Source of the DNA: Desulfuromonadales bacterium
GTDB taxonomy: Bacteria; Desulfobacterota; Desulfuromonadia; Desulfuromonadales; BM103
DNA length: 64,000 nt
Assembly (NCBI GenBank): GCA_027065695.1
Contig: JAMONP010000087.1
Span: 1 to 64,000, forward strand
Reading direction: 5' to 3'
The notes beneath the pieces are model-generated. The model made no database searches. It was given only the letters and a program-made list of their open reading frames with translations, and was not told where the DNA came from. Positions 1 through 39,105 of the stretch are shown in pieces. Positions within the stretch are counted from its first letter, which is position 1, and each line of letters opens with the position of its first letter. Position numbers and translations under genes: made by a program.

Positions 1-20
1 GTGTTGAGCATCTTTCTCAT
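1..20 (-). CDS. cas1: Cas1 N-terminus (partial, truncated by window start)
   Basis: Reverse complement of 1-20 is ATGAGAAAGATGCTCAACAC (MRKMLN...), overlapping the cas4 stop by ATGA; resembles the MRKLLNT-type start of type I-C Cas1 and sits in the expected position after cas4. Confidence 0.6.
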
Positions 21-640
21 AGATCCTCTCCCAACATCCGGTTCATGTAGCGACTGACGGATCGAGATTTGCCACAGCTTTTCGGCAAACACAAGCTGAG
101 TAATGAACAAGCGTCACACTTTTTGTCGTACACGGCCTGAGGCGTCTTACCACCTATTATCATCTGATGGGTTTTGTCGATGATTTCCTTTGTCAAAGCT
201 CTGAGTTCGGCATCCAAGAAGATCTCTTTTCTGCGCCGTTGTTTACCATAGAACAATGCCCCGCTATCAATCTGCACATCCAGCATCTCTTCCAGGCAGA
301 GTGCCTGTGCGCAAAGCTGCACCTCGTCGCAGCGGTCTTTCTTGGGCTTGCCACGTTTGTATTCGACGGGATATATCAGACCATCAGCATGGAACTCCAC
401 GACATCGGCCTGTCCACTCAAGCCTAGTTGCCGCGAACAGATTGGCAGGGTGCGTACCACCCGGATACCCTTTTGTTGACTTGCTTGCCCACTGTCGGCT
501 CGTTCGTGCAACACCTTGCCTTCTGCCGTGTAGCGGTTTTCGGCCCATTGCTGCTCCAAGTGGACTAACGCACACCGCCTCGGGCAGTAAACAAAATGAG
601 TAAGTGCCGAAATTGGTATAAAATCAGATTCAGGAAACAT
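17..640 (-). CDS. cas4: CRISPR-associated exonuclease Cas4 (type I-C style)
   Basis: PISALTHFVYCPRRCALVHLEQ N-terminus, VEYKRGKPK nuclease motif, C-terminal Cys cluster CDACSLLSLCLPKSC. Confidence 0.95.
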   Translation of the reverse strand: MFPESDFIPISALTHFVYCPRRCALVHLEQQWAENRYTAEGKVLHERADSGQASQQKGIRVVRTLPICSRQLGLSGQADVVEFHADGLIYPVEYKRGKPKKDRCDEVQLCAQALCLEEMLDVQIDSGALFYGKQRRRKEIFLDAELRALTKEIIDKTHQMIIGGKTPQAVYDKKCDACSLLSLCLPKSCGKSRSVSRYMNRMLGEDL

Positions 641-664
641 AAAAACCTTTTGTATTCAACAGGT

Positions 665-2869
665 CTAAATAATTGTGCCTTTGAACTGCTCATTTTCCAA
701 AACAGGTAAAACACCAGCCATGTATCCTAAAAAATCATTGTAGGGATAAATCCATTCATAAATCCCATTTCTAATCTCCTGAATCCCAAGTTTTTCAAGT
801 TGATACCCCCAGATCTGTACCGATTTTTTTTGCAGTTCACGCCAATCTACATCTTCAAAGTTTTCAAGTTTTTTTATGATGTCTTCATCGATAACTGTCA
901 CTCTGGTATCCGAGTTAATAACACAAAAATCTTTTTCAACTAGCGGGAAACGATTATTGATTTCCTGCTTTTGTAAATCTTCACAAACATTACCAGTTAA
1001 CCTAATTTCTCGTTTTAATGCTGCGGTACATAATTCCGGTGTAATTTGGCAGCCCTTTTGACAATAATTGAGAAGGATGCTTGCCGCCTCTTTCAGCCCA
1101 GGGTGCTGTTTTAACAACCCAGTACTTGCAAGCCTGATAGACCAAACTTCAGCGTCTTCATTTCCACCATGCCTGTTAACCCTTCCCGCAAGTTGGAGCA
1201 ATGAAACCAAGGAACCAATTTCCCGAATGCCTGTCCGGAATGAAAGATCCACTCCAGCTTCAACGCATGATGTTGCAACAAGTGTCCAGCAAGTATCTGA
1301 ATGATCAGCTAATCTTTTTTTGATTCGATTCAGCGCAGCATCCCGATCCTGGGGTGTCAGTGCCGTAGACAGGTGTTCAATATTCTTTCTTCCAGATTTA
1401 TCTGCACATGCCTGAGCAACAACAGCAGCACTTTGAACTGTATTAAGGATGACAATGCGAGGCCCAGGTACCGTGTATAGCCATGCAATAAGTTCATCAA
1501 TATCTAAAAGATTCTCTTTGTAGCGATACGTAATGCGAGCAGTTTCAAAGGCCATCAATTTTTTTCGGAAATTATCATTTATAACCTCAGGAACATCAGG
1601 GCAATCTTTATCAATTTCAGGTATTTTCCAGAAACGATTTAATGATCCTGAGGCAAGGACCCAATAACACTGCCATTCGTCAGCAAAAACTTTCATCCAA
1701 TGCCACGCCAACGGGAGCAGTTTCGCTGGCAGGGCAGCGTGAGACTCATCAACAAAAATGGCACTTCCTGGGAGATTGTGTAATCTGCGAAGAGTGGACG
1801 GAGTATTAGATGCGAGGGTTTCAAAAAAAGCTACCGCAGTTGTTACGACTATTGGAGCTTTCCATAATGCGGTCAGATGCCGACTACTGATATCTTGAAA
1901 ATCGGCTCGATGATGGAGCTCTGCAACAACTTCTTCTGCATTTTCTCCTGGTAGAATAAGGGCTTTACGATAGGTCTCCACCGATTGCGAAATTATATTG
2001 GTGAAGGGCAAAACCACAATGATCCGTCGCAACCCCCGGTTCTTGGCTTGCGAGAGTAAGTGTGCCATTACGGCGGTTGTCTTTCCTGTTCCCACAGGGC
2101 TATCACAAGAGGATATTCCTGCGTGAATATTTGAGGTCTTGCAAATCTCATACATCTGAGATCGCAGACATGATCTTTCATCTTCATCATTTCTAAGCTT
2201 GCTGACATAATCATCGAGAGCTAATAATCGTTCTGCAGGGTTCAATTTTACGGCTTTTTTGTCCTTCGGATAATTTCCGTAATTTATCGCCGTATCGGTA
2301 TGGTCTCCATCCACAAGACAGGAAAGTGCGAGTCTGAAAAATACCGCACTGTTCCCTTTTAACCCCTCAACTAAACCTTTACCTGGTGGCAACCCCTTAA
2401 CCGTTTCAATATGTTTGGTCAATAATTCTGGAAGCGTTGCATCAACATGATCCAGAACAGATTCATCCTGATTCAAAACAGACTCATCCCTGAACTGGTG
2501 CTTTTCTGCACGGGTACTCTCCACTATAAAATCTGACAAACCGATATGATGTGCCCGAACCAAAGCCGCACTCAATGGCATCGTCTTTTTAAGGAGATGT
2601 GCTGTGCCAGCGTCGGTGTGCTGAACAGGGAGAGTTTTCGCTTTTTGCTCGCCAGAAAGAACGCGTTGGTTCTCTTTATCCAGCTTGCCTAGATCATGAT
2701 ATTCCGCAGCAGAATGAACGACCCACCTAAAAAATAATCTATCCAATTTCGAGAAAGATGCTGCCTCAATTGAGGCAGCATCTGCACCTTGCACAACACC
2801 ATGAACATGACCAGCGTAGCTTTGAGCTGGTACATCCTTTTTCTTGTCAGCACTGTGCGCAAATAACAT
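665..2869 (-). CDS. cas3: CRISPR-associated helicase/nuclease Cas3 with N-terminal HD domain
   Basis: HD motif HSAAEYHDLGKLDKENQ, Walker A SPVGTGKTT, DExH box IFVDESHA, motif VI QLAGRVNRHG. Confidence 0.93.
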   Translation of the reverse strand: MLFAHSADKKKDVPAQSYAGHVHGVVQGADAASIEAASFSKLDRLFFRWVVHSAAEYHDLGKLDKENQRVLSGEQKAKTLPVQHTDAGTAHLLKKTMPLSAALVRAHHIGLSDFIVESTRAEKHQFRDESVLNQDESVLDHVDATLPELLTKHIETVKGLPPGKGLVEGLKGNSAVFFRLALSCLVDGDHTDTAINYGNYPKDKKAVKLNPAERLLALDDYVSKLRNDEDERSCLRSQMYEICKTSNIHAGISSCDSPVGTGKTTAVMAHLLSQAKNRGLRRIIVVLPFTNIISQSVETYRKALILPGENAEEVVAELHHRADFQDISSRHLTALWKAPIVVTTAVAFFETLASNTPSTLRRLHNLPGSAIFVDESHAALPAKLLPLAWHWMKVFADEWQCYWVLASGSLNRFWKIPEIDKDCPDVPEVINDNFRKKLMAFETARITYRYKENLLDIDELIAWLYTVPGPRIVILNTVQSAAVVAQACADKSGRKNIEHLSTALTPQDRDAALNRIKKRLADHSDTCWTLVATSCVEAGVDLSFRTGIREIGSLVSLLQLAGRVNRHGGNEDAEVWSIRLASTGLLKQHPGLKEAASILLNYCQKGCQITPELCTAALKREIRLTGNVCEDLQKQEINNRFPLVEKDFCVINSDTRVTVIDEDIIKKLENFEDVDWRELQKKSVQIWGYQLEKLGIQEIRNGIYEWIYPYNDFLGYMAGVLPVLENEQFKGTII

Positions 2870-3762
2870 CAGATATTATCCATAAGGTCTACACAGCTAT
2901 CCAAGCGATCAAGAAGATCCTGTGGTAAGCGTGCCGATTTATCCTCATAGTCATTCCACGATGTTGACGACGCCAACGGATCATCACCTGTTCTTTTTGG
3001 AGTCAAGGCATCGATCAGCAAATAATCGGGGCAACTGCCAAGTGCATTTTTGTGTTCCATGAACCACGCATGACGAATTCGCACATCAGGTCTGATTGCC
3101 GACCGCGTATGGTCGTATGCATATGGGATAAGTGCCTTAAGCAGGTCCACATCTTGTGTTGTACAACCAGACTTGTGCGCGCTGCTTGGGTTGATATAAA
3201 ACGGCATGCAGTATACGCCATGCTCTACAACCCGATATGCGAGGGGGGCCATCCCCTGACTCTTGCCTTCTTGTACTCCCGATTTATTAGTGTTGGTATG
3301 ACGTACTATTTGAACTGGAGCAAGTGATAACCCCATCGTAAATTGGGCAACCCCGGTTTTGATATAGCCCTTATTCCCACCGGACTCGAGAAAGGTATTT
3401 CCGAAAAGTCGTGCATCCCAATATTTTTTTACGAATGTACTGTTCAAAAATGTGTTCTGATCAAAACCACTTATATCATCAGACATCTCTGAAGAAATCT
3501 GACCACGGTCGCGCCCACGAGATTCCAAAATGCAGAAATGTTCTTTGTCGATACTGAGTTTTCCACTCAATGCGGAGAAAACTGGTCCATCATAATCTTC
3601 GACCAAGTCCCTTAGTTTCCGTTTAAACGAAACGGGAGAGATTTCTCCCAAACCATTTGGTCTCTGCCGGGGGTCGCTTTCTCTGTCGGGATCACCATTC
3701 GGATTGGAACTGACAACCTCAAGAATTAACAAACCCGTCGCGCGCTTAATTTTGTTGCTCAT
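2869..3762 (-). CDS. cas7: Cas7 (Csd2-like) backbone subunit
   Basis: LLILEVVSSNPNGDPDRESDPRQRPNG motif typical of Cas7; start placed at MSNKIKRATG (3762), downstream of the track start; stop overlaps the cas3 ATG (TGATG). Confidence 0.9.
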   Translation of the reverse strand: MSNKIKRATGLLILEVVSSNPNGDPDRESDPRQRPNGLGEISPVSFKRKLRDLVEDYDGPVFSALSGKLSIDKEHFCILESRGRDRGQISSEMSDDISGFDQNTFLNSTFVKKYWDARLFGNTFLESGGNKGYIKTGVAQFTMGLSLAPVQIVRHTNTNKSGVQEGKSQGMAPLAYRVVEHGVYCMPFYINPSSAHKSGCTTQDVDLLKALIPYAYDHTRSAIRPDVRIRHAWFMEHKNALGSCPDYLLIDALTPKRTGDDPLASSTSWNDYEDKSARLPQDLLDRLDSCVDLMDNI

Positions 3763-3787
3763 ACTCAATTCCCCTTTTTTGAATTTA

Positions 3788-4144
3788 TTATTTTTTATTA
3801 GAAGCAAGATAACCGAGCAGTAACTGTGCTCGCTCCGCATCGTTAAATCTATTCGGCAAAGACATTTCAGCAAGCTGAGCAGCCACCTCTCCATACTGTC
3901 CAATAAAATACCCAGCTAATTTGCCATTTTCCTTTCCCCTGAATGTTTGTGCCCAGCCGTAGTATGGTTTTAATCTCAAAGCCAACTGTGAAAGCGCCTG
4001 AATAGGGTTATCTAATGCTGCCGACATCAGTGCATTACCAACCAATTGAGGAGGCAACTCATCACGAACCTCCTTACAATAAAGAGCGTGAAGCTCATCA
4101 GCCAGTTTCATCATGCGCCCAACAAGAAATGGAACTTTTCCCAT
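3788..4144 (-). CDS. cas11c: Predicted internal small subunit Cas11c (118 aa) translated from inside cas8c
   Basis: ATG at 4144 in frame with cas8c (codon 578) preceded on the minus strand by ACGGAGGTTTATATG, a strong Shine-Dalgarno; type I-C systems are known to make Cas11c this way. Confidence 0.7.
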   Translation of the reverse strand: MGKVPFLVGRMMKLADELHALYCKEVRDELPPQLVGNALMSAALDNPIQALSQLALRLKPYYGWAQTFRGKENGKLAGYFIGQYGEVAAQLAEMSLPNRFNDAERAQLLLGYLASNKK

Positions 4145-5875
4145 ATAAACCTCCGTTTTTATTCCAAGTTTATAAAGCAGTAACCCTAAAATTGACGGTA
4201 ATAAAAGCTTATGCTTATCGTATCCCTTAGCTTTAATAGCAATAATTTCGTTACGGTTAATTGAGGCACCCAACGATAAAAATAGCCCCTTGCTATTTCG
4301 GATAAGGACGGTGAAAAGTTGGGAGATAAATCGTTCTGCCTGCTCATCAAGTAGCAGTTCGATTCCTTTGGTGTAAGCAACAACTGGTGTTTCACACTCG
4401 GTCGATCCATCTAGCTTCCAAACACGGTTAAAACACGATGCTATCTGGAGTGGATATGGCACTTGTGGTTCTGCAACACTCCACTCCCCTTTTTTGTCTC
4501 CCCAAACACGGAACTTTATATTCGGTAAATTTGCACAACCATCCGCCCACTCACTGGCGGCATCGGCAAGCCGCTGTGCCGTATAGTTGCGATGAAAAAC
4601 AACTTTGGTGCGTGCTTTATCCATTTTTTTCAGAGAAAAGACGCGTAACTCGATTCCCTTAAGATCCTGCGTTATATTTTCCCGAAGTTTTTCAATCACG
4701 CTATGTGCGGCATTCGTAAAGCGATATCCAGAATCAAAATTCTCTTGCGCACCTAAACACGCAGCCAGGTTGAGAGAAATTCCAGGTAACTGTGCAGGGT
4801 ATGCAAAAATAAGTTCTTTGGTATCTGCCCGTCCCCAAGTATCACCTTCATGGGAAGAATCACCCAACCATTCAAGAGCTCCCTTTGCACGCTTCCTGCT
4901 CTCACTGCCAATCGGAAAAGATTTTGAGTCAATGGTTTTATAACGTTGTTGACAAGGTGATTCACTATTCATTGCACGTAACTTCACTTCAGCAACATAA
5001 GGAAGTTTCACCCCTGGCAACTTTTCATTACTGCCATCTACAGTGGAATTGAACGCGTCAAAAACAACTTCCGAGGTGATTGTCTTTTCCTTCTTTACGA
5101 TTAATTGTTCATTAATCATTTCGATGGTACTTTGACTGGCAACAGGATATTCATCCCAATCTGGAATATCCAAAAAAACTGATAGAGTACCCCTGTCTTT
5201 ATCTGGCGTTTGCTTTATGCTTCCATCATGTAATAGAAAAGACAGTGCTAAAGTAGCATTTTCGGAACTCTCAATTAGCTCCCACAAATAGTTTTCCAGT
5301 ACTCGCCTAAATGATTTTCCATAAACACAATTCAGTAATGAACTGTCTTTGTCTAAAACTGGATAACGTAAAACCCGTTCAATCAATTTATCGACCACAT
5401 GACAGCTTTCACGATTGTGACCAGCTATGAGTCGAGAGAGCTTTTCAGGTACTTCACCGAGGCATCGACTTAATTTTTTCTTAATTTTTTCATCCCAATT
5501 ATCATTCCGTTCAGCACACCAACTTTTGAGAAGATCAACGTCAATACTTTGTTTGCCATCACGCCAAGCTTTCAACCGTTTTTTTGCAGTTTTCTGTTCT
5601 TCGATACTTTCATCAAAAGCAATTCGATATAACGGTTGAATATTGAGCCCAGGAAACGAGCTGCCATTGCTTGGCTCCCATTTTTTTAAAAAGGGGACAA
5701 TCTCATGGTTAATTGCATCAATTCCTTCTACACTGCCATCATCTGCAATAAAAATGCGATAACAGGGCTTTTTTGTTGTAGCTTTAGGCAGCTCTTTCAA
5801 CTTTGGATCCCACTCTTTTGGAGCGATACCAGCAGTGTCCAGCGCATCAGCTAATTGACATAATTCATTCAGCAT
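3788..5875 (-). CDS. cas8c: Cas8c (Csd1-like) large subunit, 695 aa
   Basis: Position between cas5 and cas7, Csd1-like N-terminus and C-terminal YMGKVPFLVGRMMKLADELHA region. Confidence 0.85.
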   Translation of the reverse strand: MLNELCQLADALDTAGIAPKEWDPKLKELPKATTKKPCYRIFIADDGSVEGIDAINHEIVPFLKKWEPSNGSSFPGLNIQPLYRIAFDESIEEQKTAKKRLKAWRDGKQSIDVDLLKSWCAERNDNWDEKIKKKLSRCLGEVPEKLSRLIAGHNRESCHVVDKLIERVLRYPVLDKDSSLLNCVYGKSFRRVLENYLWELIESSENATLALSFLLHDGSIKQTPDKDRGTLSVFLDIPDWDEYPVASQSTIEMINEQLIVKKEKTITSEVVFDAFNSTVDGSNEKLPGVKLPYVAEVKLRAMNSESPCQQRYKTIDSKSFPIGSESRKRAKGALEWLGDSSHEGDTWGRADTKELIFAYPAQLPGISLNLAACLGAQENFDSGYRFTNAAHSVIEKLRENITQDLKGIELRVFSLKKMDKARTKVVFHRNYTAQRLADAASEWADGCANLPNIKFRVWGDKKGEWSVAEPQVPYPLQIASCFNRVWKLDGSTECETPVVAYTKGIELLLDEQAERFISQLFTVLIRNSKGLFLSLGASINRNEIIAIKAKGYDKHKLLLPSILGLLLYKLGIKTEVYMGKVPFLVGRMMKLADELHALYCKEVRDELPPQLVGNALMSAALDNPIQALSQLALRLKPYYGWAQTFRGKENGKLAGYFIGQYGEVAAQLAEMSLPNRFNDAERAQLLLGYLASNKK

Positions 5876-6540
5876 AAAGTCACCTGCTTTCGTAGAAACA
5901 TCAGGGTTCCATTTTGAATAGCCACGTTCTGATCAAAGGAAAAAGCTACGTCTGATGCGTACCCTTCGGGGAAAACCTCCCGAAGCATCGATGGGATAAC
6001 GGTATTGAGATTGATCTGAACGATTGTTGAATCACGAAACTCGCCAAAATACGCAGGTGCAAATTCCTTCCAGCCTAAAAAGGGAACAGAAAAACACTGC
6101 CCTCTCTTAAGTCTCCTTTCAAACATAGCCTGATATGCATGACCGGGTGCAGTGGTTTTTTGATCCCATCTTTTAGCAGACAGCGGCATATCTTTTTGAA
6201 TGCTTTTGGGGGCAGGTGAAACTTCTGCATACAGGCGATAACAGACATCAAGCAAAACTGTCGCAAGGAACTGAAAACCACCACCCGTTTTAACAACACC
6301 TGACTTTCGAAGTGGCCCACCATAGTTTGTCTGATAGTTGTGATATTGAAGCGGAGTACATATTTCAACTTTTGTTGGATTTATCTGTACTGCGGGCCCC
6401 CATAAAATAGATTCGAAAATCCCTTTTACGGCTGAATAGGTTGGTGCCGGATAGCTGACAGGACAATCCCCCGTGTCAGGACGTGTCCACATGGCAGTAG
6501 CTCCGGAAATTTCAATTTGTACGTTATAGCTCTTACCCAT
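5869..6540 (-). CDS. cas5: Cas5 (type I-C Cas5d-like)
   Basis: GATAMWTRPDTGDCPVSYPAPTYSAVKGIFESILW N-terminus; PFLGWKEFAPAYFGEFR motif. Confidence 0.92.
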   Translation of the reverse strand: MGKSYNVQIEISGATAMWTRPDTGDCPVSYPAPTYSAVKGIFESILWGPAVQINPTKVEICTPLQYHNYQTNYGGPLRKSGVVKTGGGFQFLATVLLDVCYRLYAEVSPAPKSIQKDMPLSAKRWDQKTTAPGHAYQAMFERRLKRGQCFSVPFLGWKEFAPAYFGEFRDSTIVQINLNTVIPSMLREVFPEGYASDVAFSFDQNVAIQNGTLMFLRKQVTLC

Positions 6541-7376
6541 TAATACCCCCTTTTCTCTAGTCGTTTCTGTTTCTCAGATATATCCAGAAAATTTCCCTCT
6601 GAAACAACCTTACGCCCCGATTCTTCTTCCAGTTTTTCACGCGCATTCCCAGCAATAGTCCCTCCCTTGTTCGAGGCAGTGTGATTCTCATCAAAACCCT
6701 GTGCATCCTGACTTCTCGCAATCTCGGTTGTGGCTGCCTCACCCAGCATCGAAAAGATCAACTCCAGATCAGTCATGTGATCTCGTAGATTCTCACGCTG
6801 CAAACCTTTCATTTGTTTGTATTCGGATGGAGTCACACCGAAAGCAGCTTTCGATATTTCAGCGGTGAGGATAGCGTACTCGCGATGACCACCAACATCA
6901 CGGTTTTTCCATTCGTCGGTCAATTCGGCACGGATAGCGATGCCACGCATCCGTTTTTCGATCCAGTCATCAGAATATCCTTTGGCACGATAGAGTTCAC
7001 GGGTACGCCGGGTTGCCAGTTCTGGGTCCTCGATCTCCTGCACCCGCTCGTAACCGACCTTGGCCAGCCAACGCTTGAATGGTTCGGCTTTGGGGGAAGG
7101 AATCGACTGGATGATGCGAAAGATACCTTCGGTGTTTGCGCAATCGGTCAGATACTTTTTGCCATCGCTTGATTCTAGTTTCAGTTGTCGACAAAATGTC
7201 GACAACTCAGTTCCACTGGCATCTTTCTCCCGTTTTTTCATGCGATACCAGTAGTCACGGGGTTTGCCGCTGTCTGTCAGTGCCGCAATGACATCAACAA
7301 CGGCAAAAAACCAAACATCTTCAATGAGAATGCGTCTGATCTCCTTGTCCTGGAAAACCACCAATTTTTCATCCAT
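6540..7376 (-). CDS. BRO-N domain protein with DinD-like C-terminal region
   Basis: N-terminal BRO-N-like sequence (KEIRRILIEDVWFFAVVDVIAALTDSGKPRDYW), then ELSTFCRQLKLESSDGKKYLTDCANTEGIFRIIQSIPSPKAEPFKRWLAKVGYER; C-terminal HMTDLELIFSMLGEAATTEIA. Stop overlaps cas5 ATG as TAATG. Confidence 0.85.
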   Translation of the reverse strand: MDEKLVVFQDKEIRRILIEDVWFFAVVDVIAALTDSGKPRDYWYRMKKREKDASGTELSTFCRQLKLESSDGKKYLTDCANTEGIFRIIQSIPSPKAEPFKRWLAKVGYERVQEIEDPELATRRTRELYRAKGYSDDWIEKRMRGIAIRAELTDEWKNRDVGGHREYAILTAEISKAAFGVTPSEYKQMKGLQRENLRDHMTDLELIFSMLGEAATTEIARSQDAQGFDENHTASNKGGTIAGNAREKLEEESGRKVVSEGNFLDISEKQKRLEKRGY

Positions 7377-7455
7377 GTTTACCTCCCTCCTAACATTAGA
7401 ATACCGTCATGCTCTCTTGCATGAGCCATTTCCATTACGACCATCTCATCGATCA

Positions 7456-7854
7456 TCACCCAACCTCCAGCCCCACGCCAACTTTCAGCATTCCCCAAAC
7501 CACAGCCTGTGGGGCACTCTCCAGCACCTCACCCCGTAGCTTTGCGTCTTGTCGCAACAAGCGGCTGAGATGTCGATTATCACTGCGCGGCACATATCCA
7601 AGTTTACGCCCCTGCCATTCGATACGCACCGCATAGTAGTCGTGCTGATTGTCAGATTCCGCAACCAAATCCAGAAGCACCCCTGGTTGCAGTCGATTTA
7701 TCAACTGCGGCCCATCATAATACTGGAACCCTGCAACCATAAAGCGGTTCAAGCGGTATCGTCGCGACTTAACTCCGGCGAAAACCGGCCCACTGAGGGT
7801 GACAGGCAACAGCAATAAAGCCTTTTTAAGAAGCAAGCGTCGGTTCATGAACAT
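7456..7854 (-). CDS. HIRAN-domain protein with N-terminal signal-like segment
   Basis: FMVAGFQYYDGPQLINRLQPGVLLDLVAESDNQHDYYAVRIEWQGRKLGYVPRSDN matches HIRAN pattern; hydrophobic N-terminus ending PVFAG. Confidence 0.8.
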   Translation of the reverse strand: MFMNRRLLLKKALLLLPVTLSGPVFAGVKSRRYRLNRFMVAGFQYYDGPQLINRLQPGVLLDLVAESDNQHDYYAVRIEWQGRKLGYVPRSDNRHLSRLLRQDAKLRGEVLESAPQAVVWGMLKVGVGLEVG

Positions 7855-12819: not shown

Positions 12820-13380
12820 TCAGGCCCTCGACACGAACCGTCTTTCCCGCGTATCAACCTTAACCTTTTCGTCGGTTTCAAGATAAGAAGGCACCTGAAG
12901 CCTCAAGCCTGTCTCCAGGACAGCTTCCTTGGTTTGCGCCTGAGCAGTGGCATTCTTAATCGCCGGGGCCGTTTCGGTCACCAGAAGTTCCACAATCATC
13001 GGCGGTTCAATGGAGACAACCTGCCCTTCAAAAACCCCGAGGACAACCTCAACACCATCGGTAAGGTAGCCTTTCACCGGGCCATATATCTCATCGCCCA
13101 GCTCGTATTGCTCGTAATTCTCAAGATCCATGAACACACCATTACCGCCATCGGCATAGAGGAACTGGCCATTACGTTTTTCGAAATCGGCAGTATTGAC
13201 ACGGTCGCCAGCCTTGAAGGTCTTTATCAACACCTGGCTGGTAAGCAGGTTGCGGTACTTGGTCTTAATCAGGGTGCTGCCGCCACGTGCCGAAGGGCTC
13301 TGGCTGCTGATATCCATGACAAGGCAAGGTGCCTTATCAAGCAGAATCACCTGGCCACGTTTCAGATCGTTGGATGTCAT
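12820..13380 (-). CDS. efpL: Elongation factor P-like protein (YeiP/EfpL)
   Basis: QSPSARGGSTLIKTKYRNLLT tip with Arg instead of Lys; EF-P fold throughout; start placed at MTSNDLKRG. Confidence 0.88.
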   Translation of the reverse strand: MTSNDLKRGQVILLDKAPCLVMDISSQSPSARGGSTLIKTKYRNLLTSQVLIKTFKAGDRVNTADFEKRNGQFLYADGGNGVFMDLENYEQYELGDEIYGPVKGYLTDGVEVVLGVFEGQVVSIEPPMIVELLVTETAPAIKNATAQAQTKEAVLETGLRLQVPSYLETDEKVKVDTRERRFVSRA

Positions 13381-13642
13381 AGGCTTTTCTCCTTCTAAAA
13401 AAATTACGACTGGGAGCGGCAATGTAGCATAAGTTGTGCGGGTGAGGAAATCAGATTATGGGTGCATGGTTAAAGGTTAAATGACAAACTCTGAACCCGA
13501 AGCCCTTATCCTTTTTTCGCGTCCCGCGTCCCGCGTTCCGCGTTCCGGTTCCTAAAAAACCCATGACACACACCACCCTTTGTGTGTATAACGGCACTAC
13601 CATGAGACATCGCCACATAAAGTTTTTTGAAGGAGTTTCCCT

Positions 13643-14206
13643 ATGTACAGCTGCGCAGATCTGAAAAAAGGTATCAAGCTGATGATCAACAATGAGCCAC
13701 ACGTCATCGTGCAGTTTGATTTCACCAAACCAGGTAAAGGTCAGGCTCTTTACAAGTGCAAATTACGCAACATGATCACCGGCGCTCTCTTCGACCGCAC
13801 CTATCGCTCTGGCGAAAGCTTCGAGCCAGCCAGCCTGGTGGAACGCGATATGCAGTATCTTTACAAAGATGAGACCGGCTACGTATTCATGGACCAGAAA
13901 ACCTACGAGCAAACCTCTATCAGCGAAGAAGTGCTCGGTGATGACAAGTATTTCCTGGTCGACAACATGGAGGTCAAGGTTCTCTTGCACGGTGAACGCG
14001 GTATAGGCGTCACCCTGCCCATCTTCGTCAACCTGCGTGTTACCCAATCCGACCCCTGGGTCAAGGGCGATACCGCCGCCGGTCACAACAAACCGGCCAC
14101 AATAGAATCAGGCTACACCCTGCAGGTACCCGGCTTCGTTGACGAAGGTGTGCTGATTCAAATTGATACGCGCACCGGTGAATACGTCACGCGCGTCAAG
14201 GAGTAA
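13643..14206 (+). CDS. efp: Elongation factor P
   Basis: FTKPGKGQALYKCKLRNMITG with modifiable Lys in the tip loop; C-terminal VLIQIDTRTGEYVTRVKE. Confidence 0.95.
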   Translation: MYSCADLKKGIKLMINNEPHVIVQFDFTKPGKGQALYKCKLRNMITGALFDRTYRSGESFEPASLVERDMQYLYKDETGYVFMDQKTYEQTSISEEVLGDDKYFLVDNMEVKVLLHGERGIGVTLPIFVNLRVTQSDPWVKGDTAAGHNKPATIESGYTLQVPGFVDEGVLIQIDTRTGEYVTRVKE

Positions 14207-14270
14207 CCTGGAGGCTGCTCGGGTTTGCTTTTCGCGCCACTCACCACTCGCCACTCGTCTCAGACGCAAA

Positions 14271-15185
14271 ATGATTGAACAAAACTGGGCTCTGGCCCGC
14301 AAAACAAACAAACTGACTGAAAGGGCCCGAATCGTTGCAGATATCCGGGCCTTTTTCGCAAGTCGCGGCTACCTCGAGGTGGAGACCCCACACCGCATTC
14401 CGGCCAACGCCCCCGAACCATATATCGATGCCGTCAGCAGCGGCGACTGGGCTCTGCACACTTCACCGGAACTGGCGATGAAACGTCTGCTGGCTGCCGG
14501 ATATGAGCAGATTTTCCAGATCTGCCGGGTCTGGCGCGATGGCGAACGGGGCCAGTACCATCTACCTGAGTTTACCCTGCTTGAATGGTACCGAACCGGA
14601 ATCGACTACCACGAATTGATGACCGAATGCACTGAACTTCTTTATGTCTTGGTTCCAGAGAGGAAGCTGACCCGACAGGGGCGCACCATCGATCTGACCG
14701 CGCCATGGCAACAACTGACAGTTAGTGCAGCATTTTCACAATACGCCTCAATGAGTCTTGATGAAGCCCTGGTCTCAGATCGTTTTGAAGAGATTCTGAC
14801 CACTGAAGTCGAACCGCACCTGGGCAAGGCCCGACCGACTTTTCTCACCGAATACCCAACCTGCCTGGCAGCTCTGGCCCGCACCAAACCAGGCGAGCCA
14901 CAGGTTGCCGAACGCTTCGAGCTCTACATCGACGGCCTTGAACTGGCCAATGCCTTTTCGGAACTGACCGATCCGCAAGAGCAACGCAGCCGCTTCGAGG
15001 CAGACGAAGAGACCCGACGCTCCACCGGCAAGAGCCCTTATCCGCTCCCGGAAAAGTTCCTCAATGAGCTTGCGACCATGCCCGAAGCAGCGGGCATCGC
15101 CCTCGGTCTCGACCGCCTGGTTATGCTGCTCACTGGAGCCGTGAACATTGATGAAGTGGTCGCTTTTACTACCGACGAACTTTAA
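14271..15185 (+). CDS. epmA: EF-P--(R)-beta-lysine ligase (EpmA/GenX/PoxA)
   Basis: Truncated class II LysRS-like: YLEVETPHRIPANAPEPYIDAV, ALHTSPELAMKRLLAAGYEQIFQICRVWRDGE; start placed at MIEQNWALARK, not the track start. Confidence 0.92.
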   Translation: MIEQNWALARKTNKLTERARIVADIRAFFASRGYLEVETPHRIPANAPEPYIDAVSSGDWALHTSPELAMKRLLAAGYEQIFQICRVWRDGERGQYHLPEFTLLEWYRTGIDYHELMTECTELLYVLVPERKLTRQGRTIDLTAPWQQLTVSAAFSQYASMSLDEALVSDRFEEILTTEVEPHLGKARPTFLTEYPTCLAALARTKPGEPQVAERFELYIDGLELANAFSELTDPQEQRSRFEADEETRRSTGKSPYPLPEKFLNELATMPEAAGIALGLDRLVMLLTGAVNIDEVVAFTTDEL

Positions 15186-15298
15186 CCACAACTCATCTGC
15201 AGAAATCTCATTGTAAACGTAAAGGCCTCTTGTTTTTCACCCGCTCAACAGGCTATAAAAAGAGAGACACATACGACTCACAGAGATCCTTGGTGACT

Positions 15299-16117
15299 AT
15301 GTATTTTCACTCTGAAACAGCCCTGTTCAATGCTTGCCGAACCCTTTTCGGTAAGGAAGTCAATCTCACCCGGGAATTTCTCAACTATCTCCAGCCGAGC
15401 GGTGCCAGAACAGCCTTCCGCAGCCAAGCCAAAACCCACCATCCTGACGCCCACGCGAGTTCGTCGCCACAGATCCGCAAACAACAGACTGAACGTTTCC
15501 GGGAGATTCGTCAGGCCTATGACCTGATTAATAATTTCCTCGAAAAGCGTCACCACAACTGCCAGGCGACTCCAAACAGAAGACCATCGCAGACAGCAGC
15601 CAGAAAGCCACCACAGGCAGCATCACACTGGGGCAGAAACCCTTCACGCTGGGACAGAAACTCTTCACACCGGCGCAAACAACAAAAGCCCCATTCACGA
15701 CCCTCTTCGATACCGGCAATTCCACTCGAATTCGGCATGTTCACCTACTATCAAGGCAAAGTAACCTACCAGCAATTGATTGAGGCGCTGGTCTGGCAGC
15801 GACGGCAACGACCGACACTCGGTGTCATTGCCCAGGAATGGGGCTGGCTATCAGAAGCCAAGGTGGCTCAGGTTCTGGGGCATCGCGGACATGCTGTACG
15901 CTTCGGCAAGAAAGCTGTCGAGCTTGGTTATCTTCGGCCACTACAGGTCGAGGCTCTACTACAACATCAGCGTTCCCTGCATAAACGGATCGGTCAGTAT
16001 TTTATTAAGAAAGGTTTGTTGACAAAGGAAGAGACCGATCAAATCTCGCAGAACCTCAAGAGCCACAACAGCCAGATCAGCAGACGCGCAAACAATCGTT
16101 CTAACAGCAGACGCTAG
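15299..16117 (+). CDS. J-domain protein with C-terminal MshEN-like helical repeats
   Basis: HPD motif in RSQAKTHHPDAHASSSPQIRKQQTERFREIRQAYDLIN; C-terminal RIGQYFIKKGLLTKEETDQI; start placed at MYFHSETALF. Confidence 0.75.
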   Translation: MYFHSETALFNACRTLFGKEVNLTREFLNYLQPSGARTAFRSQAKTHHPDAHASSSPQIRKQQTERFREIRQAYDLINNFLEKRHHNCQATPNRRPSQTAARKPPQAASHWGRNPSRWDRNSSHRRKQQKPHSRPSSIPAIPLEFGMFTYYQGKVTYQQLIEALVWQRRQRPTLGVIAQEWGWLSEAKVAQVLGHRGHAVRFGKKAVELGYLRPLQVEALLQHQRSLHKRIGQYFIKKGLLTKEETDQISQNLKSHNSQISRRANNRSNSRR

Positions 16118-16173
16118 AAGCCTGCCCGACAATCCATGCTCGGCGGCAAGCCCAGCTGTTTGGCCCATTTTTC
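16116..16173 (+). repeat. Truncated copy of the TIR-bearing repeat
   Basis: agaagcctgcccgacaatccatgctcggcggcaagcccagctgtttggcccattttt matches left part of copies at 34737 and 38943. Confidence 0.8.
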
Positions 16174-16278
16174 GTGGGGCTAAGCAAACGTCACACCTGC
16201 TTCGCCCTTGTTGCAACAGAGACCAAAGACGGGCGCAGACAAGATGGGCGAAGCAGGTGAAGCTTGCTTAGCCCCTAC
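16174..16278. repeat. Imperfect palindromic element abutting the truncated repeat
   Basis: gtggggctaagcaa...acctgcttcgccc / gggcgaagcaggt...ttgcttagcccctac arms. Confidence 0.8.
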
Positions 16279-16294
16279 AGTAAGTTACAGTCGA

Positions 16295-17335
16295 TTACCG
16301 TAACAGACTATTTGGCAATTCAACTATACCACAAGCCGTCTTCAGCTTGACCGTTTCTCCCACCTCAAGAAGATTCTCAGGCAACAACGGCACCTTGCCC
16401 TGACCACCAGGCGGATCCACCACGTATTGTGGTATTCCCAACCCGGAAACCTGACCACGCATAGCTGCGAGGATCTCCAGACCACGCTCTACCGGCGCCC
16501 GAAAATGGGCAGTTCCCCGAGCTTGATCGAGATGGTGCAGATAATAGGGGCGCACTCTCATTTTGAGCAGACCGCGACAGAGCGCCACCATGACCTCGGG
16601 ATCGTCATTGACACCACGCAGTAAAACGGTCTGATTACCCAAGGGGATGCCGACATCAGCCAATCGCGCGCAAGCCTTGACACTAACGGCAACCAATTCC
16701 CGTGGATGGTTGAAGTGGGTATTGAGATAAAGCGGTTGAAAGCGGACCAGTAGCTGACAGAGTTGTGGTGTGATGCGTTCCGGCAGAGTTACCGGCACCC
16801 GAGTGCCGATGCGGATTATTTCCACATGGGAAATGTTTCGCAACGCCATCAGGATCTCTTCGAGTCGGTCGTCATCGAGCAGCAACGGATCACCACCAGT
16901 CAGAATGACATCACGAATGCCGGAGTTTGCCGCGATATAGGCAATCCCGGCGGCGATCTGTTCTGTAGAAAAAGTGAGCGCTGTCGTACCAACTCTATTC
17001 TTGCGAGTACAAAAACGACAGTAACCGGCACACTGTCCCGAGACCAGCAGCAAGGCACGATCCGGGTAACGATGCACCACCGCTGGGACCGGCGAGAAGG
17101 CAGCTTCATTCAAAGAGTCTTCAGGAAGACCATCCACAACCAGTTCGCTGAGATCGGGCACACACTGTCGCCAGATCGGATCGCCAGACGTGTCAATCAG
17201 ATTAAGGTAGTGTGGCGTAATACGCAGAGGATAGCTGGCAGCAACAGCCCGCAACGGCTCGGGGTCGATCCCAAAACGTTCGGACAACTGTTCCGGAGTG
17301 GTGATACTATCGGCAAGTTGTGATTTCCAGGACAT
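16295..17335 (-). CDS. epmB: EF-P lysine 2,3-aminomutase (KamA-like radical SAM, EpmB)
   Basis: Radical SAM CxxxCxxC: CAGYCRFCTRKNRVG; VILTGGDPLLLDDDRLEEIL; PYYLHHLDQARGTAHFR. Confidence 0.93.
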   Translation of the reverse strand: MSWKSQLADSITTPEQLSERFGIDPEPLRAVAASYPLRITPHYLNLIDTSGDPIWRQCVPDLSELVVDGLPEDSLNEAAFSPVPAVVHRYPDRALLLVSGQCAGYCRFCTRKNRVGTTALTFSTEQIAAGIAYIAANSGIRDVILTGGDPLLLDDDRLEEILMALRNISHVEIIRIGTRVPVTLPERITPQLCQLLVRFQPLYLNTHFNHPRELVAVSVKACARLADVGIPLGNQTVLLRGVNDDPEVMVALCRGLLKMRVRPYYLHHLDQARGTAHFRAPVERGLEILAAMRGQVSGLGIPQYVVDPPGGQGKVPLLPENLLEVGETVKLKTACGIVELPNSLLR

Positions 17336-34736: not shown

Positions 34737-34900
34737 AGGAGACTGTCGGACTATCCATGACCCGGCTGCAAATCCGGCTGTTTGGCCCATATTTCAGCTC
34801 CTTTTCGATCAATAGCTATGGCTATTAACCTCAAACGAGCCAAAATCTGGTCTCAAACTTCCGAATTTTCGCTTCGGCCCGTACAGTCCGACAGACTCCT
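34737..34900 (+). repeat. MITE-like repeat copy 1 with ~16-bp TIRs
   Basis: Left AGGAGACTGTCGGACT; right AGTCCGACAGACTCCT; interior near identical to 38943-39105. Confidence 0.88.
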
Positions 34901-38942: not shown

Positions 38943-39105
38943 AGGAGCCTGTCCGACAATCCATGATCGGCTGCAAACCCAGCTGTTTGGCCCATATTTC
39001 AGCTCCTTTTCGACCAATAGCTATGGCTATTACTCTCAAACAAGCCAAAATCTGTTCTCAAACTTCTGAGTTTTCGCTTCGACCCTTATTGTCGGACAGG
39101 CTCCT
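38943..39105 (+). repeat. MITE-like repeat copy 2 with perfect 18-bp TIRs
   Basis: AGGAGCCTGTCCGACAAT ... ATTGTCGGACAGGCTCCT. Confidence 0.9.

Follow-up and report, generated by a model that had tools for sequence, protein, structure and literature searches.

A Bro-N-domain gene distantly related to dinD, probably a mobile accessory of type I-C and type I-E cas operons

Introduction

The closest described relatives of the gene reported here belong to the PADLOC candidate family PDC-S13, which is embedded in or adjacent to multi-gene defence systems, namely cas operons and restriction genes. According to PMC12988326, each PDC is one candidate gene put forward by a guilt-by-embedding screen, most have yet to be tested, and S13 occurs mainly in bacteria and has been transferred to archaea. 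The name PDC-S13 was found in no full text, and one review writes "S13" (PMC12988326). Two further proteins come into the comparison by remote likeness. In the passages of PMC4457935 that treat it, Escherichia coli DinD is listed among the regulators of the RecA filament (citing Uranga et al. 2011), and E. coli DinD is the only protein of this kind for which inhibition of the filament is reported there. Deinococcus radiodurans DdrC binds single- and double-stranded DNA and guards it against nucleases; it also anneals strands and turns linear DNA into circles (PMC5436757). Literature searches for DinD or Bro-N in connection with CRISPR returned nothing relevant.

Results and Discussion

The Bro-N gene and its host operon

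The window (the whole stretch of 64,000 nucleotides analysed here) begins at the start of contig C87 of a Desulfuromonadales genome. The gene of interest lies at 6540..7376 on the minus strand, its reading frame running from an ATG at 7376 to a TAA ending at 6540 (278 codons), and is assigned to the PDC-S13 family as a Bro-N/DinD-related gene. Its 278-aa product consists of an N-terminal Bro-N domain (residues 12-106; Pfam PF02498, E=2.9e-10) and a helical C-terminal domain. The initial annotation had described a strong Shine-Dalgarno sequence and a one-base overlap with cas5, and both were confirmed: the ATG is preceded by TTAGGAGGGAGGTAAAC, the signal and start together reading TTAGGAGGGAGGTAAACATG (7374..7393, minus strand), and the stop and the cas5 start have one base in common, in TAATG (6542..6538, that is, 6538..6542 on the minus strand).

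The gene heads an operon, all on the minus strand, that continues with cas5 (Cas5c/d; 5869..6540; PF09704 and PADLOC), a divergent cas8c (3788..5875), cas7 (Csd2-like; 2869..3903; PF05107), cas3 (Cas3c; 665..2869) and cas4 (17..640), directly after which the contig ends. Cas8c was recognised by PADLOC only (PDLC01562, E=1e-171), Pfam and NCBIfam searches giving no match, and has close relatives only in loci L075, L242, L261 and L307. The TTG start of cas7 at 3903 overlaps cas8, and the true start is likely an ATG near 3762. PADLOC profiles find Cas8c, Cas5c, Cas7c and Cas3 of type I-C all present; judged by these matches the operon is a divergent type I-C operon, with cas3 behind cas7 instead of at the operon head. 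The "type I-C-like" label it had been given is thus sound, with profiles for Cas5, Cas8c, Cas7, Cas3 and Cas4 all matching. The same variant, in the order cas5-cas8(~690 aa)-cas7-cas3-cas4, was seen at 17-6540 of the window and in L075, L242, L261 and L307.

As the contig ends behind cas4, neither the cas1 and cas2 of this operon nor a CRISPR array is seen in the window, and a search through the rest of the assembly yielded no I-C cas1. A further cas1 (399-aa frame) lies with two cas2-like genes on contig C29 (L136, G000:C29, 7650-9408), unlinked to I-C or I-E genes; it was rejected as the missing I-C cas1 in view of the two cas2-like genes beside it and the absence of I-C genes. On the other side of the Bro-N gene, 79 bp upstream and on the same strand, is a HIRAN-domain gene (7456..7854) whose product has an apparent signal peptide. 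It was considered as a partner and set aside, since relatives occur in only two fetched loci (L287 and L302), and it probably stands outside the Bro-N/cas unit.

Two further features of the window were also noted. The region 12820-17335 holds two EF-P-like genes together with an EpmA-like (lysyl-tRNA synthetase-like) and an EpmB-like (lysine aminomutase-like) gene, a putative EF-P modification cluster by sequence resemblance. A dispersed direct repeat occurs at 16116-16173, 34738-34900 and 38943-39105, with a 58-nt unit present three times and a 138-nt pair at 89% identity.

Protein family and predicted fold

The window protein is matched nearly from end to end (residues 3-272 of 278) by the PDC-S13 profile PDLC04920 at E=5.2e-122. 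E. coli DinD is recognised by a different PDC-S13 profile at E=2e-121, and over its residues 122-250 also by PDLC04920 itself (2e-16). The protein has the layout of the DinD superfamily, a Bro-N domain followed by a DinD C-terminal domain, at a weak score: the family HMM meets E. coli DinD in its C-terminal half only, with 15 bits. BLASTP of the window protein against E. coli DinD was not significant (E=1.3). The initial description of the gene as "DinD-like" therefore stands as a remote relationship only, carried by the common PDC-S13 membership and the C-terminal HMM match and not by pairwise similarity. As a separate observation, 262 residues of E. coli DinD are also matched by PADLOC PDLC03083, the profile of a type I specificity subunit, a hint that DinD-HsdS fusions exist.

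A full-length sequence search of the PDB gave no match even at E=1. When the AlphaFold model of the protein (pLDDT 88, pTM 0.65) was compared with the PDB by Foldseek, six matches fell below E=1e-3, all of them to DdrC (best 8.1e-8). Nearly the whole protein is aligned in these matches, at 12-15% identity, TM 0.31-0.51 and rmsd >12 A; such low TM-scores and large deviations suggest that the domain arrangement differs, and the modelled likeness to DdrC would be one of fold class and parts. Across 61 diverse members 49 residues are invariant, several of them basic. No catalytic domain is recognisable by Pfam, the conserved core being Bro-N and helices.

Recurrence in cas operons

A second copy of the gene, 75% identical to that of the window, was found on contig C61 of the same genome inside a complete I-E operon (cas3-cse1-cse2-cas7-cas5-cas6-(Bro-N gene)-cas1-cas2), so that two CRISPR subtypes of one genome share the extra gene. 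Among the 80 best relatives, one genome per species and picked by sequence similarity only, about 25 lie inside or beside cas operons. The full set of 151 distinct genes (the best relatives and the flanks of copies from the class of the host) includes 38 copies in cas operons, 25 in I-C and 13 in I-E; L013 was moved by hand to I-E because of the I-E genes that follow it, and is I-E in the tree too. About three quarters of the 151 lie outside recognised cas operons, many of them beside restriction-modification genes. The cas-embedded copies span at least six phyla, hosts with taxonomy being Thermodesulfobacteriota, Myxococcota, Nitrospirota, Bacteroidota, Omnitrophota and Ignavibacteriota.

In 277 genomes of the class, a family member lies within 3 kb of 21 of the 93 I-C or I-E cas1 genes (15/55 of I-C type and 6/38 of I-E). 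Given how many members each genome carries, 0.18 such cases are expected; the corresponding Poisson probability (7e-36) takes a uniform 3.5 Mb genome and independent loci and is only indicative, since relatedness breaks that independence. There is no doubt about the enrichment near cas1 in the class, which is roughly 100-fold. An even sample of the phylum outside the class contained about 38 copies, 10 of them within 10 kb of cas1, where 0.2 would be expected (P 2e-14). The link of a non-core gene to type I-C, first suspected from the window, thus recurs, with the next cas gene usually nearby or overlapped (by 4 or 1 bases in 16 of the 38 cas-embedded copies), and the lack of recurrence that the initial annotation had allowed for is contradicted by a wide margin. 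The association proved broader than I-C and cas5, to which it had been tied: it extends to I-E and to restriction-modification loci, and its commonest site is beside cas4 and cas1. In I-C operons the gene stands mostly between cas4 and cas1, next most often between cas7 and cas4 and in a few cases at the operon head, and in I-E operons nearly always just before cas1. At L319 (G566:C43), two tandem Bro-N members and two other genes (333 and 227 aa) were seen between cas7 and cas4.

These positions bear on whether the protein is a regulator, as suggested at the outset, which would adjust cas expression by binding to the promoter of the operon. The Bro-N fold matches viral repressor and antirepressor proteins, and copies at the operon head, as in the window, are found in L307, L010, L140 and L308; the I-C variant of the window recurs in L307, whose genome belongs to another class, and is headed there by a 65% identical member that lies 362 bp from cas5. 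Most cas-associated copies are mid-operon, before cas1 or cas4, which argues against a dedicated regulator of a cas promoter, as does the service of one family in unrelated operons. In the window, no promoter-like site was found in the 79-bp gap before the gene, and a promoter and terminator scan upstream of it did no better than on shuffled sequence. Regulation is accordingly an unlikely role.

Mobility and selection

A tree was built from 149 copies, among them the 24 I-C and 13 I-E rows of sufficient length. The cas label is clustered on it, with 12 changes versus 34.7 when shuffled; I-C requires 13 changes and I-E 12, which indicates repeated passage between the subtypes. The copies in L006 and L115 share 79% identity with that of the window, and the cas proteins of these two loci are only 24-47% identical to those of the window or undetected. 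Conversely, L242 and L261, two of the closest cas operons (cas7 59%), have other inserts and no Bro-N gene, and the closest of all, L075 (cas7 74%), has a 64% identical member at a different junction, between cas4 and cas1. The Bro-N gene moves independently of the cas genes. It is also under strong purifying selection, with dN/dS of about 0.03-0.08, I-C/I-E pairs included.

Insertions at the boundary between interference and adaptation genes

In I-C operons of the class, inserts of at least 250 bp occur at 29 of 75 cas7-cas4 and cas4-cas1 junctions versus 2 of the 111 that fall within the block of interference genes (Fisher 2e-11). The I-E operons of the class have them at 13 of 17 cas6e-cas1 junctions versus 0 of 54 others (4e-11), junctions of cse2 being left out of the comparison set, since the local profiles recognise this gene poorly. 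The Bro-N family occupies only part of these gaps. Other genes found there are RhuM (PDC-S05), the DUF1016/YhcG nuclease (PDC-S02), an S23 four-helix protein, DUF559, HEAT-repeat and transposase-like genes, and in L247 and L252 mere fragments of the Bro-N family are left. RhuM, RhuM-Fic or DUF1016 genes (PDC-S05, S23 and S02) were seen at the cas7-cas4-cas1 or cas6e-cas1 junctions of L242, L244, L251, L255-L258, L260, L289 and L297, some of them assigned by sequence resemblance only; in the I-E operon of L017 a RhuM-Fic gene (PDC-S23; 4184-5179) follows directly after the Bro-N gene. Since the hotspot is shared by unrelated genes, insertion there seems to be tolerated and not needed for function. 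Most simply, these operons would accept inserts where subunit stoichiometry is unimportant, and defence accessory genes would pile up at such points, so that the position of the Bro-N gene alone is no proof of a role in adaptation.

A selfish or neutral passenger that inserts at tolerated sites would fit the mobility of the gene, the many copies in the class that are broken by stops or reduced to fragments, and a hotspot shared with a transposase-like gene. The low dN/dS and the strong preference for defence operons speak against this explanation, and no transposase or integrase accompanies the gene in the loci read; we consider a passenger very improbable.

Other hosts, phages and plasmids

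The same-strand neighbours of copies outside cas operons are led by restriction and methylation genes, namely ResIII, MmeI, Eco57I, type ISP and SNF2-PLD helicases. Systems of these kinds act on double-stranded DNA, and the hosts other than cas operons appear, from their gene content, to be biased to DNA-cutting systems.

The strongest rival explanation is that the gene is a stand-alone antiviral gene that senses or blocks phage itself and, riding in an operon, gains co-expression and co-transfer. It would fit the match to PDC-S13 (E=5e-122), given that PDCs are defined as single-gene candidates (PMC12988326), as well as the several unrelated host systems, the switching between them and the stacking with other PDCs (PDC-S23 in L017; PDC-S05 and PDC-S02 at the same junctions). 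It fits less well with a protein in which Pfam finds no catalytic domain, or with hosts biased to DNA-cutting systems, and no experimental test of PDC-S13 was found in the literature searched. The sequence evidence suits this explanation as well as the role proposed below. We regard it as a serious possibility, albeit one that falls clearly short of probable.

Bro-N domains are common in phages, and the matches of the Bro-N fold in BFVD are viral and phage repressor-domain proteins; the gene might on these grounds be a phage-derived modulator, as the initial annotation had also suggested, or an anti-defence gene captured by the operon. The subfamily itself is nearly absent from phages, with relatives in 4 of 50,697 phage records (all <60% identity) and on 46 of 2.9 million IMG/VR contigs, and from plasmids (11/72,556). 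Phage origin was rejected on this rarity in phages and viral contigs, which also makes a phage antirepressor role for the window gene unlikely; capture from a phage is the least probable of the explanations considered.

Proposed role

Recurrence, insertion at the boundary, overlaps with cas genes, selection and independent movement are observed, and they are the basis of our proposal, which we consider highly probable, that the Bro-N gene serves as a mobile accessory to defence operons that cut DNA. We further propose that the Bro-N protein would be made together with the nuclease complex and would act on the broken or recombining DNA left by Cascade-Cas3 or by a restriction enzyme. Like DdrC and DinD, to which it is distantly related, it may bind RecA filaments, single-stranded DNA or the ends of DNA; a cut invader would thereby not be rescued by recombination, and/or its ends would be channelled or protected. 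By analogy with these relatives, a DNA-end or RecA mechanism is conceivable but tentative, and for the reading as a whole, an accessory gene whose product acts on broken or recombining DNA, we judge the chances slightly better than even. Its more general form, in which one mobile family of DdrC/DinD type would serve unrelated DNA-cutting systems (I-C, I-E and restriction) as a shared factor that binds breaks and controls RecA, is a rather speculative extension.

Between about a fifth and a quarter of the class's I-C and I-E operons carry an extra Bro-N gene, and the transition from interference to adaptation genes is a hotspot for the insertion of recurring accessory genes that are known elsewhere as candidates for defence. 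Should the protein act on DNA ends produced by Cas3 or restriction enzymes, immune cleavage would be linked to recombination, to phage escape and possibly to spacer acquisition.

Comparison with known systems

The window gene resembles PDC-S13 in its full-length match, in being a single gene and in belonging to a class defined by embedding in defence operons; the Bro-N family and the idea of embedding were already known. The texts searched, outside which the original preprint lies, do not describe the I-C and I-E hosts, the insertion hotspot at the interference-adaptation junction, the switching between subtypes or the DdrC-like predicted fold, and priority for these points is uncertain. The initial view of the association as undescribed is therefore only half right: the family is PDC-S13, and its insertion at cas junctions is absent from those texts. 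E. coli DinD has the same architecture of Bro-N and C-terminal domain, falls in the same PADLOC candidate and shows remote C-terminal homology, but pairwise similarity is not significant and dinD stands alone between yicC and yicG. Viral Bro-N repressors and antirepressors share the N-terminal domain but have another C-terminal part, and the window subfamily is nearly absent from phages. RhuM (PDC-S05), RhuM-Fic (PDC-S23) and DUF1016/YhcG (PDC-S02) sit at the same junctions of cas operons elsewhere, although they are distinct proteins with other domains. D. radiodurans DdrC, the sole significant PDB fold match to the model, differs in its 12-15% identity, low TM-score and length of about 226 aa, and is a gene of the DNA-damage regulon, whereas the Bro-N gene is found in defence operons.
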